Shown: positions 1,822-7,068, numbered from the stretch's first letter. The stretch: 64,000 nt of DNA from an uncultured Erysipelotrichaceae bacterium (GCA_902764145.1 CACWUS010000001.1:85678-149677), one strand, 5' to 3'. Notes: generated by a model not told the origin, from the letters alone. Numbers and translations: made by a program.

Positions 1822-2376
1822 ATGAAGGAATATATTAGAAGTAGAATCATAATGAGTTTGGAGTTTGCTATTATTATATTACTAGCACTATTTTTAAAAA
1901 AAGAAACTTATACTGTTTCAACTCTTTCTGTTGCCAAAAATAATAGTTTAGAAAAAACACTTGATGTAGAAATAATTCAACAAAATCAGAAAGAACTATT
2001 TTCAAAAGGAACATACAATCCTGTGTATAGTTTTATTGGTGAATTAACAGGGTACGCTGGTGATTGTCCATTGTGTTCAGGATATTTAGCTTGCCCCCCA
2101 AGAACTAATGTATTAAAAAAAGGAATATATTATGATGATAAAACTTATGGAAAAATAAGAATTGTTGCAAGTAGTAGAAACTATCCTTGCGGAACAATTT
2201 TGAAATTTAATGTAAAAAAATTATCAGATGAGCCAATAATAGCTATTGTACTTGATAGAGGCGTTGGCGGAAATGTCATTGATTTGTTAACTGAATCAGA
2301 AGATTTTGCGAGGAAAAAGGTGGGAAGAGTTAGAAATTTAAATTTTGAAGTGTTAAGAGAGGGATGGAAAAAGTGA
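1822..2376 (+). CDS. Membrane-anchored 3D-domain protein (YabE-related)
   Basis: A signal anchor at about residues 11-26 (SLEFAIIILLALFL) is followed by a spacer of about 40 residues and a C-terminal 3D domain, named for its three aspartates; CGTILKF, VLDRGVGGNVIDL and the final VRNLNFEVLREG are visible. The 3D fold is a double-psi beta-barrel related to lytic transglycosylase domains and is found in wall-remodelling proteins. B. subtilis YabE at this position is longer, with DUF348 and G5 domains that are absent here, so this is a short version. The cysteines in CPLCSGYLAC could form disulfides outside the cell. The stop overlaps the rsmA start. Confidence 0.75.
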   Translation: MKEYIRSRIIMSLEFAIIILLALFLKKETYTVSTLSVAKNNSLEKTLDVEIIQQNQKELFSKGTYNPVYSFIGELTGYAGDCPLCSGYLACPPRTNVLKKGIYYDDKTYGKIRIVASSRNYPCGTILKFNVKKLSDEPIIAIVLDRGVGGNVIDLLTESEDFARKKVGRVRNLNFEVLREGWKK

Positions 2377-3155
2377 GTTTTGAACATAAAAAATCATTAG
2401 GCCAAAACTTTCTTAATGATAAAAATATAATTAAAAAGATAAGCAATTCTATTAATCCAAAAGAAAAAGATCTTATTATTGAAATTGGTCCTGGTGAAGG
2501 TGCTTTAACTAAAGAACTAATTAGCAAAAATTGTGATGTTATATCTTTTGAAATAGATAAGAGACTTGAAGAAACATTAATTCAAATAAAAAGTGATAAT
2601 TTAAAAATAATCTATGAAGATTTTTTAAAAGTAAATTTAAATAATTATATTAATGAAAAATATGAAAATGTGTATTTTGTTGGTAATTTACCATATTATA
2701 TTACGACTGCAATAATAAATAAAATAACTGAAGAATCTAGTCCAAAAGAAATAATAATTATGATACAAAAAGAAGTTGCAAATAGATTTATGGCAAAAGT
2801 AAAAACAAAACAATATAATTCATTATCAGTTTTTCTTCAATATAATTATAATATAAATAAAATATGTGAAGTTAGTAGAAATTGTTTTTATCCAATTCCT
2901 AAAGTTGATAGTATGGTTATTAAATTAACAAGGCAAGATAAATATAAAAAACTATGTAGTAATGAAAAATTACTTTTTAGAATAGTAAAAGACGCTTTTA
3001 GACAAAAGAGAAAAAATCTTAATAATAATTTGAAATCATATGATAAAGAAACAATCACAAAAATACTAAATAAATATGATAAAAGTTTATATAATAGAGC
3101 AGAAGAAATAACAATAGAAGAGTTTATTGATATTGCTAATAATTTAAGTTCATAG
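2373..3155 (+). CDS. rsmA: 16S rRNA adenine dimethyltransferase KsgA/RsmA
   Basis: It carries the conserved start KKSLGQNFLND, SAM motif I IEIGPGEGALT, motif II FEIDKRL and the catalytic motif NLPYYITT, then the C-terminal domain with FYPIPKVDSMVI. It dimethylates two adjacent adenines in helix 45 of 16S rRNA. The GTG at 2373 is preferred because the GAGGG at 2359-2363 is about nine bases upstream; the in-frame ATG at 2364 directly abuts that ribosome site. The gene overlaps the stop of the 3D-domain gene by four bases. In Bacillus rnmV lies between these two genes; it is missing here. Confidence 0.94.
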   Translation: MSFEHKKSLGQNFLNDKNIIKKISNSINPKEKDLIIEIGPGEGALTKELISKNCDVISFEIDKRLEETLIQIKSDNLKIIYEDFLKVNLNNYINEKYENVYFVGNLPYYITTAIINKITEESSPKEIIIMIQKEVANRFMAKVKTKQYNSLSVFLQYNYNINKICEVSRNCFYPIPKVDSMVIKLTRQDKYKKLCSNEKLLFRIVKDAFRQKRKNLNNNLKSYDKETITKILNKYDKSLYNRAEEITIEEFIDIANNLSS

Positions 3156-3179
3156 AAATATGAATTTTTTTAAATTAGA

Positions 3180-3208
3180 TTGAATTTTAAAAAAAAATTT
3201 TGTATACT
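3180..3208 (+). promoter_or_regulatory. Sigma-A type promoter for the histidine kinase pair
   Basis: TTGAAT (3180-3185) is followed by 17 bases and TATACT (3203-3208), with a TG one base upstream of the -10 box. It lies between the rsmA stop and the kinase ribosome site, so the two kinases can be transcribed independently of rsmA. Confidence 0.7.
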
Positions 3209-3240
3209 AATATTGAATAATATTGAGGGAGTTGATAGTG

Positions 3241-5151
3241 ATGCATATCGGTGCGTATTTTAACAGTGTAGGATTAACTATACCCGGATTAGTATTTTTA
3301 ATATTAATTTTGATTATATATATTAAAAAGCAAAAGAAATTTGATTTAAGAGGAAAAGTATTTATATTATTACTTGTTTTAACAGCTGCAACTATCATCT
3401 TAGAATTAATAATACCAAATTTAATTGCTGATAGAGCTTCAAGTGAGACTTTATGCCTCGTAATATCGAAAATATATGCTTATATCATGTTTTTATGGGA
3501 TATTGTTATGCTTGTGTATGTATTCACTTTCTTATTTGATACTGAAGCGTTAAAAGAAAATCCTAAATATAAACTGATGATGACAATAGGAATTGTTTTA
3601 ATGATATTGATTCCACTTGCATTTGTATTACCTTTAGAAGTTGAATTTTCTGGTAATGAAAATACTAACCTTCAATATGTAGTAGGTGGACCTATAATGT
3701 TTGCTTACCATTTATATACTTTTTTCGGTACAACTATAATGTTAACTGTTATGTCTATAAATATTAGAAAATTTAAAAATGTTAACGTATTGCCTCTATA
3801 TTTATTCTTTATATTCTATATATTAATTACATTATTTCAAACATTCTTAAATTATGAAATTAATGAAGTCGGTTTATTCTTTGTTTTATTCTTAACAATT
3901 TTGTTCCTAACTGTTGAAAGTCAGGATAATAAATTATTAAGTGAATATAGAAAGAGTAAAAAAGAAGCTGAAAAGGCAAATAAAGCAAAAACTGAATTTT
4001 TAATAAATATGTCTCATGAAATTAGAACTCCAATGAACACAATTTTAGGTTTTAGTGAGTCATTATTAAAAGAACCTCAATTAACAGAAGAAATAGTAAA
4101 AAGAGATTTGCAAAATATAAGTGCTGCTAGTTCAACATTATTAGACTTAATTAATAATATATTAGATATTTCTAGAATTGAATCTGGAGAAGAAGTATTA
4201 AATGAAGCTAATTATAGTTTAGAAAACTTAATATTTGAAATAAATAGTTTAATTCCTTCTAAAATTAATAAAGAAGAGTTAAAATTTTCAATTGATATAA
4301 ATGAAAATTTACCAAAAGAATATTTTGGAGATACCTATAAATTATTTAAAATACTAACATATATTTTAGTAAATGCAATTGAATATACAAATTATGGTGA
4401 AGTAAAATTAATAATTGATGGACAAGAAGAAGAAAACAATATTATGAATTTCAATCTAGTAGTTTCTAATACAGGTCATGCAATGTTAGCGGAAAATTTT
4501 GAAAAGAATTTTGATGACTATGTAAAACTAGAAAATGCCTCACAAAATAATGTTGATAGCATCAAACTAGGTTTAATTATTGCTAAACAATTAATTAATA
4601 TATTAGGTGGAACTATTGAATTTAAAAATGAAAAAGGAATGGGTACTAGATATTTAATTAATGTTAAACAAAAAATTGTTAATAAAGAAAAGATAGGAAA
4701 TATATTCGCTAGTCATGAAAGTGCAGTATCTAGCAGTAGAGATTTACTAGATTGTACCGGAAGAAAGGTATTAGTAGTTGATGATGCTGAAGTAAACTTA
4801 AGAATAGCTAGTAAATACTTAGAACAATATAAATTTACTATTGATACAGCAAATAATGGAAAAGATTGTGTAGAAATGGTTAAAAATAATCTATATGATA
4901 TTATTTTCCTAGATCATATGATGCCTGACATGGATGGTGTTGCTACAGTAAAAGCTTTAAATGCAACAGGATATAAGTTACCACCAATAATAGCTCTAAC
5001 AGCCAATTCTTATACGGGTCTTGAAAATGAGTATATTGCACAAGGATTTAGTGGTTACTTACAAAAACCAATTGACTTTAGGCAACTTAATAAAATAATT
5101 AATGATATATATAAGAATAAGACTGATCAATATAAGGAAGAGGTGATATAG
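3241..5151 (+). CDS. Hybrid sensor histidine kinase with degenerate ATPase domain
   Basis: About 636 residues. The first 220 hold some seven hydrophobic segments, a short charged linker follows, then a HisKA domain with an intact H-box (MSHEIRTPMN, His about 259), a HATPase-like domain and an intact receiver domain (LVVDD, LDHMMPDMDG with Asp about 558, LTAN, LQKPID). The ATP-binding boxes are damaged: the G1 box reads SNTGHAM in place of DxGxG, and the G2 box reads SIKLGL in place of GxGLGL. It can therefore probably accept phosphate but may bind ATP poorly. The next gene is a second hybrid kinase one base away. Start at ATG 3241 follows GAGGGAG. Confidence 0.85.
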   Translation: MHIGAYFNSVGLTIPGLVFLILILIIYIKKQKKFDLRGKVFILLLVLTAATIILELIIPNLIADRASSETLCLVISKIYAYIMFLWDIVMLVYVFTFLFDTEALKENPKYKLMMTIGIVLMILIPLAFVLPLEVEFSGNENTNLQYVVGGPIMFAYHLYTFFGTTIMLTVMSINIRKFKNVNVLPLYLFFIFYILITLFQTFLNYEINEVGLFFVLFLTILFLTVESQDNKLLSEYRKSKKEAEKANKAKTEFLINMSHEIRTPMNTILGFSESLLKEPQLTEEIVKRDLQNISAASSTLLDLINNILDISRIESGEEVLNEANYSLENLIFEINSLIPSKINKEELKFSIDINENLPKEYFGDTYKLFKILTYILVNAIEYTNYGEVKLIIDGQEEENNIMNFNLVVSNTGHAMLAENFEKNFDDYVKLENASQNNVDSIKLGLIIAKQLINILGGTIEFKNEKGMGTRYLINVKQKIVNKEKIGNIFASHESAVSSSRDLLDCTGRKVLVVDDAEVNLRIASKYLEQYKFTIDTANNGKDCVEMVKNNLYDIIFLDHMMPDMDGVATVKALNATGYKLPPIIALTANSYTGLENEYIAQGFSGYLQKPIDFRQLNKIINDIYKNKTDQYKEEVI

Positions 5152-5152
5152 T

Positions 5153-7006
5153 ATGATTTTTAATGAAGCATTTACTTATTCATCTATAGCCTTTATGATT
5201 ATCTTGATAATAATATATTTTTCAAAATCTATGTTTAATGATATTAGAACAAAATTATATAAATTAATGATTGTTGATGCAGCATTGTACATTGCAACTG
5301 AATTAATTCCTATGTTCTCACTTAAATATGGAAATAGTAAGTTTTTGGTAGAATTTAGTTGGAGAATTCACTGGGTATTTGGAATTGCTTTCTTATGGTT
5401 ATTCTTCGATTATTGTATTGTTATGATAAAAAAACCACAGATTAATAATGTATTTAAATTATTCACATCTGAGTTGGTTTATACAATATCATCTGCTTTG
5501 TTCATATTATTTGAATTAGCATATTTCTTCTTATTAAAGTATGATGGTTTAAACTTAAATGATATGAATTATTTACCTGGAAGAACTGCAATATATGTTA
5601 TAATATTTACACTATTAACAATTGCAATTATATTATTCTTCTTATTTAAGTATAAAGATAATACAACTAGTCAAGAGAAAAGAGCAGTTATTATTGTTAT
5701 ATTGATATTTATTGGTAGTGTTATTTGCCAATTAATGATGAAGGATATATCTATAATACCATTTGGATTTTGTTTATTCATGTATAGCTTATACTTCAAT
5801 TATGAGAATCCAGACTTAGCAATAATTAGTGAAATATCAAATGCTCAAGGAGATATTGAAAAATCTAATCAAACAAAAACTGATTTCTTATCTAACATGA
5901 CATATGAGATTAAAGTTCCAATGAATTTGATTTCAAGTTTATGTGATGAATTAGTTAATATGTCAGTGTTTGATGAAAAACTTGTTAGAGATGATATTGA
6001 ACAAATTCAAACATCTGGAAATAATCTTTTAGATATTATAAATAATATTCTTGATGTATCTAAAATTGAAAGTGGAAAGGATGCACTTCAAGAAAGAGAA
6101 TATCCTATTAATGATATGCTTGTAAATATTATAAATATAGCAAAATCAAAGATAGGTGCAAAGCCAATAAAATTAGCTGTAAATATAGATCAAAATATAT
6201 CTTCTGTACTTTATGGAGATTCAGCTAAGTTATATCAAGCTTTAATTAATATTATGGGTAATGCTGTAAAATATACTGAGGTTGGTAGAATTACATTTAC
6301 AGTAACAAGTACTAAATCATCTGGAATTGAGCATTTGCAATTTAAAATATCTGATACTGGTACTGGTATAAAAGAGGAAGATCAAGACAAATTGTTCTCT
6401 AAATTTACAAGACTTGATAATGCTGTAGAAAATGAAATAGAGGGTAGTGGACTAGGATTGGTTATTACAAAACAATATATTGAATCTATGGGTGGAAAGA
6501 TTTGGTATGAAACTCAATACAGAGTTGGTACTACTTTCTACATAGATGTTTCACAAAAGATTGTAGATTCAACTACATTAGGAGTTGCTGCAGCAACTGT
6601 TAAAACAGAAAATACTGGGGAAAAGATAGACTGCTCAAAATATACTGCATTAATTGTTGATGATAATAACTTAAATATTAAAGTAGCAAAAAGATTACTT
6701 GAAGCTTACAAATTTAATATTGAAAGTGTAACGGCAGGTAAAGATTGTGTTTATAAGATTAAAGAAGGATCTGTTTATGATATAATTTTTATGGATCACA
6801 TGATGCCAGAAATGGATGGAATTGAAACTTTACATGTTCTAAAAAAATTGGATGGGTATAAACTTCCTCCAATAGTAGCATTAACAGCAAATGCAATAGC
6901 TGGTATGAAAGAAATGTATTTAAGTGAGGGATTTGATGATTATTTATCTAAACCAATAAATACAAATGAATTAGATAGAATAGTTCATAAATTCTTTAAT
7001 AAATAA
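5153..7006 (+). CDS. Hybrid histidine-kinase-like protein lacking the phosphoacceptor histidine
   Basis: About 617 residues with the same layout as the gene before it: some seven membrane segments, HisKA, HATPase and receiver domains. The H-box reads MTYEIKVPMN, so Tyr (about residue 251) sits where the phosphorylated His should be. The ATPase part looks complete: N-box NAVKYT, G1 ISDTGTGI, F-box KLFSKF and G2 GSGLGLVI. The receiver is intact (LIVDD, MDHMMPEMDG with Asp about 548, LTAN, LSKPIN). The gene starts one base after the previous stop with GAAGAGGTG upstream, so the two are co-transcribed. A heterodimer with the first kinase is the natural inference. Confidence 0.85.
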   Translation: MIFNEAFTYSSIAFMIILIIIYFSKSMFNDIRTKLYKLMIVDAALYIATELIPMFSLKYGNSKFLVEFSWRIHWVFGIAFLWLFFDYCIVMIKKPQINNVFKLFTSELVYTISSALFILFELAYFFLLKYDGLNLNDMNYLPGRTAIYVIIFTLLTIAIILFFLFKYKDNTTSQEKRAVIIVILIFIGSVICQLMMKDISIIPFGFCLFMYSLYFNYENPDLAIISEISNAQGDIEKSNQTKTDFLSNMTYEIKVPMNLISSLCDELVNMSVFDEKLVRDDIEQIQTSGNNLLDIINNILDVSKIESGKDALQEREYPINDMLVNIINIAKSKIGAKPIKLAVNIDQNISSVLYGDSAKLYQALINIMGNAVKYTEVGRITFTVTSTKSSGIEHLQFKISDTGTGIKEEDQDKLFSKFTRLDNAVENEIEGSGLGLVITKQYIESMGGKIWYETQYRVGTTFYIDVSQKIVDSTTLGVAAATVKTENTGEKIDCSKYTALIVDDNNLNIKVAKRLLEAYKFNIESVTAGKDCVYKIKEGSVYDIIFMDHMMPEMDGIETLHVLKKLDGYKLPPIVALTANAIAGMKEMYLSEGFDDYLSKPINTNELDRIVHKFFNK

Positions 7007-7040
7007 AAGTATATTATAAAAAGTAATATACTTTTTTTTT
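7006..7040 (+). terminator. Intrinsic terminator after the kinase pair
   Basis: Perfect 11-bp stem AAAGTATATTA/TAATATACTTT with a 7-base loop, followed by a run of T. Confidence 0.9.
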
Positions 7041-7068
7041 GCAAATATATTTAATTGAGGGGGAATGT

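Follow-up and report, generated by a model that had tools for sequence, protein, structure and literature searches.

Described paired and split histidine kinases

Histidine kinases are usually treated as homodimers, and the CA domain normally reaches the phosphoacceptor His of a HisKA domain only inside the dimer, this His lying within the rigid DHp bundle. Whether phosphorylation proceeds in cis or in trans is usually settled by engineering mutants without the His or without ATP binding and mixing them. A parallel for a split kinase is found in Rv0600c/Rv0601c of Mycobacterium tuberculosis. Among hybrid kinases, ArcB and EvgS autophosphorylate in cis, and the related BarA acts in trans, as seen by mixing His and G2 mutants (PMC4734776).

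In Rhodobacter sphaeroides, neither CheA3 nor CheA4 autophosphorylates but the mixture is active, ATP binding being separated from the acceptor His and the phosphatase; ultrasensitivity and bistability were predicted for bifunctional split kinases of this kind (PMC3591291). The two proteins described here, K1 and K2, resemble CheA3/CheA4 in that acceptor and ATPase are divided between proteins, as read from their motifs. The CheA3/CheA4 halves, however, lack entire domains and rely on a mobile P1, whereas K1 and K2 are full-length HisKA hybrids that carry a membrane sensor and a receiver each and are damaged at point motifs. K1-K2 is predicted to work like a split kinase, but it is no CheA3/CheA4 homologue, all domains being present and of the HisKA type.

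The GacS/RetS/LadS network of Pseudomonas (PMC12189002, PMC4866733; PDB 7n0e) likewise consists of HisKA hybrids, with heterodimers and phosphoryl exchange, and GacS and RetS structures are among the closest solved ones; GacS, however, is complete and is inhibited by RetS, and for that network no split of His and ATPase by reciprocal losses is described. DivL of Caulobacter (PDB 4q20) has, like K2, a Tyr for the His and a retained HATPase-like domain, and partners another hybrid kinase, CckA, as K2 would partner K1. The kinase activity of DivL is dispensable and CckA is complete, whereas K2 shows strict conservation of its ATPase motifs and K1 lacks them. RpfC/RpfG and RcsC/RcsD run from a hybrid kinase through an Hpt to a REC output, and sister pairs of K1-K2 adjoin an Hpt and a REC-HD_5 (HD-GYP-like) gene; RcsC/RcsD also pairs an active with a degenerate kinase. 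RpfC, unlike K1-K2, is a single-protein kinase with a fused Hpt, RcsD carries the Hpt itself, and the HD-GYP protein beside the sister pairs differs from that of RpfC/RpfG in lacking the HD dyad (YD). In the literature, only these partial parallels were found: no description of full-length hybrid kinases divided through reciprocal point losses, and none of such a split kinase with its evolutionary stages preserved.

Two adjacent hybrid kinases with complementary motif losses

The window (the whole 64,000-nucleotide stretch analysed, from an uncultured Erysipelotrichaceae bacterium) encodes two membrane hybrid histidine kinases on its plus strand, to which the window coordinates below refer. 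K1 (3241..5151, 636 aa), the putative phosphoacceptor arm, comprises a seven-transmembrane (7TM) sensor, a DHp, a pseudo-CA and a receiver; K2 (5153..7006, 617 aa), the putative ATP-dependent kinase arm, comprises a 7TM sensor, a DHp without the His, an intact CA and a receiver. The K1 stop codon (5149-5151) and the K2 ATG (5153) are one base apart. GAGGGAG lies just 5' of the K1 ATG at 3241, and a TTG at 3223 is the start of the longest ORF. Ahead of K1 there is a weak promoter-like TTGAAT-17-TATACT (3180..3208), such sites barely exceeding the shuffled background in this region. After K2, an AT-rich inverted repeat (AGTATAT...ATATACT) with a T run (7008..7042) was seen by eye and is a possible end of the K1-K2 transcript, the scanner having found no terminator here.

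K1 and K2 are paralogues with 33% identity over their whole length. HisKA, HATPase_c and Response_reg were found on each chain above the Pfam cut-offs, and the scores mirror the damage in each protein: HisKA scored 61.8 in K1 vs. 38.7 in K2, and HATPase_c 39 bits in K1 vs. 90.6 in K2. Hydrophobicity indicates a multi-helix N-terminal membrane region in both proteins, with seven helices in the K2 model. This seven-helix domain had no credible Pfam match and was modelled at low confidence, the AlphaFold alignment rows having been taken from the window and related loci only and being shallow in the transmembrane part.

The motif states that an earlier note on this DNA had reported were all recovered. 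In K1, the H box MSHEIRTP (4009..4032) is intact as phosphoacceptor (His259, codon 4015-4017) and as HExxT phosphatase motif, and the N-box Asn is retained, but the usual ATP-binding motifs DxGxG and GxGLGL are replaced by SNTGHAM and SIKLGL: the G1 box reads VSNTGHAM (4462..4485; Asp to Asn410, D410N, and the third Gly to Ala), and the G2 box, or ATP lid, is degenerate (4558..4575). In K2 the H box reads MTYEIKVP (5897..5920), with Tyr251 for the His (codon 5903-5905) and Val255 for the Thr at the phosphatase position, so that HExxT has become YEIKV, with both His and Thr missing. Its N, G1, F and G2 boxes are all present, including NIMGNAVKYT (6248..6277), ISDTGTGI (6347..6370) and GSGLGLVI (6443..6466). 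Both receivers are intact, as the note had also stated along with the one-base gap, the DD, D, T and K residues being present in each; the phosphoacceptors are Asp558 in K1 (4912..4914; no changes in the K1 clade) and Asp548 in K2 (6794..6796). Neither chain has both the acceptor His and the ATP-binding boxes, which only the pair holds jointly: by sequence, the two functions are on separate proteins. When K1 and K2 are aligned with 42 homologues from other phyla, conservation in the columns that either protein breaks is otherwise at least 90%.

The AlphaFold2 model of K1 as a single chain has a folded pseudo-CA core (pLDDT mostly 80-97) and a disordered lid (<50), and the closest solved structures to this domain are ShkA, HK853, GacS, RetS and DivL. 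The K1s of the window's class of pairs (class B, below) and of three other-genus genomes share a conserved form of the altered G1 motif, (S/L)NTGH(A/S/L)M, which is absent from the K1s of a second class (class A). This motif should not bind adenine, and it may have a role in the fold, in an interface or with another ligand. NTGHAM or NTGHSM is kept across genera (window 4462-4485; L236, L252 and L253) despite the lack of a working ATP site in K1.

Pairs in relatives and order of the losses

The search covered 60 relatives, all 18 genomes of the genus and two draws from the family, of 243 and 386 genomes (about 750 family genome entries in total, some searched twice). Genomes, contigs and loci are numbered below with G, C and L. 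Twenty-two adjacent pairs were found, always with K1 upstream of K2 on one strand, and among the loci fetched and classified there were no orphan members of the K1 or K2 clade. The majority of family singletons retain both functions. Besides K1-K2, the window's own genome carries another adjacent pair, on contig C10, and a family singleton that is complete.

The pairs represent three stages. At stage 0 (G060 and G199, with G166 nearly so, the F box of its K1 being worn) both partners are complete. At stage 1 (G251, G402, G419 and class A, i.e. G000:C10, G001:C13, G007:C17 and G008:C10) a K1 that retains the His without the ATPase stands beside a complete K2. Stage 2 is class B, which includes the window; the earlier note had proposed looking for the same paired defect in relatives, and the reciprocal loss, which is thus no chance pattern, is present in all ten genus pairs of this class, one of them with a K2 cut at the contig end after its Tyr box. 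In class B K2s the His is replaced by Tyr, Val or Ser, the phosphatase Thr is also gone and the ATPase is intact. An assembly error was excluded, the same motif states being present in G007 and five further genus genomes.

In a tree built without the motif columns (a quick search with no bootstrap, leaving a few inner branches unsettled), the K1s formed one clade (SH-aLRT 98) and the K2s another (99), and the genome order was nested broadly alike in both, with stage 0 basal, followed by stage 1 and then class B. Parsimony places a single loss of the G1 Asp at the root of the stage-1 K1s, and two losses of the His, one at the root of the class B K2s and one in the K1 of L051. The losses came after the duplication in two single steps, first the K1 ATPase and then the K2 His; since each was one event inherited by many genomes, the ten class B pairs do not represent ten independent losses. 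The K1 and K2 distances within class B were strongly correlated (r = 0.98, 0 of 5000 permutations), in part due to shared species history. Pairs without the reciprocal pattern, which the earlier note had counted against its proposal, do exist, but they occupy earlier nodes in both trees; as they form an ordered series, they explain the pattern and do not refute the mutual dependence of the two proteins.

Every pair with both members fully covered has at least one His and at least one ATPase, except L077 (G001:C3:19500-25500; genes at 1947-3767 and 3778-5223), where both members lack the His, the ATPase is lost or partial and the upstream member has no receiver; this pair is dead or purely structural. 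In L051 (G015:C8:1-6000), K1 has lost its His (LSREIRTP) as well as its ATPase and K2 is complete, a DivL/RetS-like state derived from the same ancestor, so a K1 can drift to a regulatory pseudokinase. Both L077 and L051 count against the split-kinase reading proposed below. In L045 (G008:C8:51500-60546) the whole pair is duplicated in tandem (K1-K2-K1-K2), the last K2 running off the contig. Adjacency alone was rejected as the cause of the losses, since the two functions persist in the members of the adjacent pair in G008:C7 (L052), which come from other subclades.

Lone hybrid pseudokinases with the His replaced and worn receivers occur in other genera (L100 in G023, L101 in G018 and L102 in G024); they have no adjacent partner kinase, and an AMP-dependent ligase-like gene lies just upstream in L100 and L101. 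A separate group of longer hybrid kinases (L083 1920-4106, L091, L094 and L255 4897-6000) has shortened or worn ATP lids and a largely intact G1.

Selection on the retained motifs

Both proteins are under purifying selection (dN/dS between orthologues 0.07-0.24 for K1 and 0.04-0.23 for K2). In the K1 tree after the ATPase loss (12.2 changes/site in total), the first three G2 columns changed 6-8 times each, and SHEIRTP accumulated a single change in total, being the most conserved of 511 seven-residue windows (median 37). As K1 without ATP binding keeps its acceptor site best of all, something else must phosphorylate or dephosphorylate it. In class B K2s (4.8 changes/site) the residues defining G1 and G2 are fixed but for a single substitution, in the second residue of G2, with no changes in the Asp, the Thr and the two Gly of G1; the H column (Y, V or S) and the Thr column vary within an otherwise conserved DHp stretch. 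A role of Tyr251 as a new phosphoacceptor is unlikely, as sister K2s have Val or Ser there.

Proposed mechanism and alternative explanations

Taking motif states, adjacency, purifying selection, tree order and single losses as established, we consider K1 and K2 to be halves of one split hybrid histidine kinase, derived from a tandem duplicate pair, with a probability of roughly 0.78. From these data we infer a physical heterodimer, phosphorylation in trans, a phosphatase arm and an output through an Hpt. ATP would be bound by K2, whose CA domain would phosphorylate K1 in trans at His259, the two proteins most probably forming a DHp heterodimer. For the trans mode, which this design requires, BarA is a precedent; the cis action of ArcB and EvgS counts against it. 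From phosphorylated K1, the phosphoryl group would move to the receiver of either K1 or K2, then to an Hpt and to a downstream receiver protein. K2 alone would have no acceptor and K1 alone no kinase. With HExxT present in K1 and absent from K2, free K1 would reverse the relay or dephosphorylate it, so that the K1:K2 balance would set the output; the phosphatase motif on K1 alone would make the pair a split kinase that is bifunctional as PMC3591291 uses the term.

The K1 ATPase would have been lost while covered by K2, and the acceptor of K2, by then redundant, later. Stage 1 implies that the heterodimer worked before the K2 His was lost; otherwise the K1 acceptor would have decayed and the loss in K2 would have broken the pathway. 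The earlier note had claimed that K2 phosphorylates K1 and that signalling needs both: conservation and phylogeny argue strongly for this claim, and obligate mutual dependence appears well supported by the sequences, while the heterodimer itself is to be taken as likely only. The fuller account, in which reciprocal point losses made an obligate heterodimer through ratchet stages preserved in sister genera, with K1 alone as phosphatase and K1:K2 as kinase, has slightly better than even odds. Coincidence detection of two inputs, also proposed in the note, is compatible with these data but only a possibility.

Under the split-kinase reading, evolution has itself run the experiment of mixing a no-His with a no-ATP protein, and the result has been kept under selection. 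Since each step is preserved in sister lineages, living proteins are at hand for testing whether selection or a neutral ratchet turns a homodimer into an obligate heterodimer, and the pair offers a concrete HisKA case for the switch-like outputs predicted for bifunctional split kinases (PMC3591291).

The alternative that survives best, though improbable, is that K1 and K2 are each homodimers and that the CA domain of K2 reaches the K1 His within a transient complex or a hetero-tetramer; such an arrangement has been proposed for RcsC/RcsD, whose structures disfavour a 1:1 heterodimer and favour dimers of dimers (PMC13317618). The sequence evidence for action in trans fits such a complex equally well, but a reach in the manner of CheA4 needs a mobile P1, whereas the HisKA His is buried in the rigid DHp bundle, and heterodimers are the default since K1 and K2 derive from one, presumably homodimeric, kinase.

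We consider it quite unlikely that K2 is a pseudokinase regulator like DivL or RetS and that the K1 His serves only reverse phosphotransfer from the Hpt, as a phosphatase or sink. A Tyr at the His position is the hallmark of DivL, the closest structural matches include both DivL and RetS, and K1 keeps HExxT; the dispensable ATPase of DivL, however, does not predict the near-unchanged G1 and G2 residues of K2 over 4.8 changes/site, and the Val and Ser of sister K2s indicate that Tyr was not selected, the conserved Tyr of the DivL type thus being a feature that K2 does not share.

There is a still smaller chance that the partners lie elsewhere, with another kinase of the genome phosphorylating K1 and K2 acting on the His of another kinase. 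The genome does have other intact kinases that could in principle phosphorylate K1, which counts against the split-kinase reading, and the second pair and the intact singleton are of the same family; strict adjacency, co-occurrence, mirrored trees and duplication as a unit speak against partners elsewhere, as do G010, G013 and G016, which carry this single pair only. Decay of two duplicates under relaxed selection with no joint function, a state that the degenerate sister pair L077 recalls, has a negligible probability and is already largely refuted by the conservation data, pseudogene decay being excluded by a dN/dS well under 1 in both proteins and by the K1 His and K2 ATPase motifs being among their best-kept parts.

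Output genes and genomic context

In six genomes of other genera (G060, G199, G166, G251, G402 and G419) the pair is clustered with genes for an Hpt of about 126 aa and a REC-HD_5 protein of about 540 aa, the Hpt scores of G166 and G419 being slightly below the cut-off; this cluster would form an RpfC/RpfG-like relay. The REC-HD_5 proteins of these loci (L236, L237, L238, L239, L252 and L253) carry HHENYDGTGYP or a close variant, in which GYP is kept and the HD dyad has become YD, so this HD-GYP output is possibly catalytically dead. The cluster was not found whole in the window's genus, where it is broken up.

Within the genus, G000, G007 and G015 have the pair flanked by ksgA and yabG, in G013 and G016 it adjoins ksgA, and the ksgA/yabG site is without the pair in G002, G005, G014 and G017. 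The window's genome also encodes two Hpt-REC proteins (C9 and C6), one lone Hpt (C21) and Spo0A (C15), which are candidates for the next steps of the relay.
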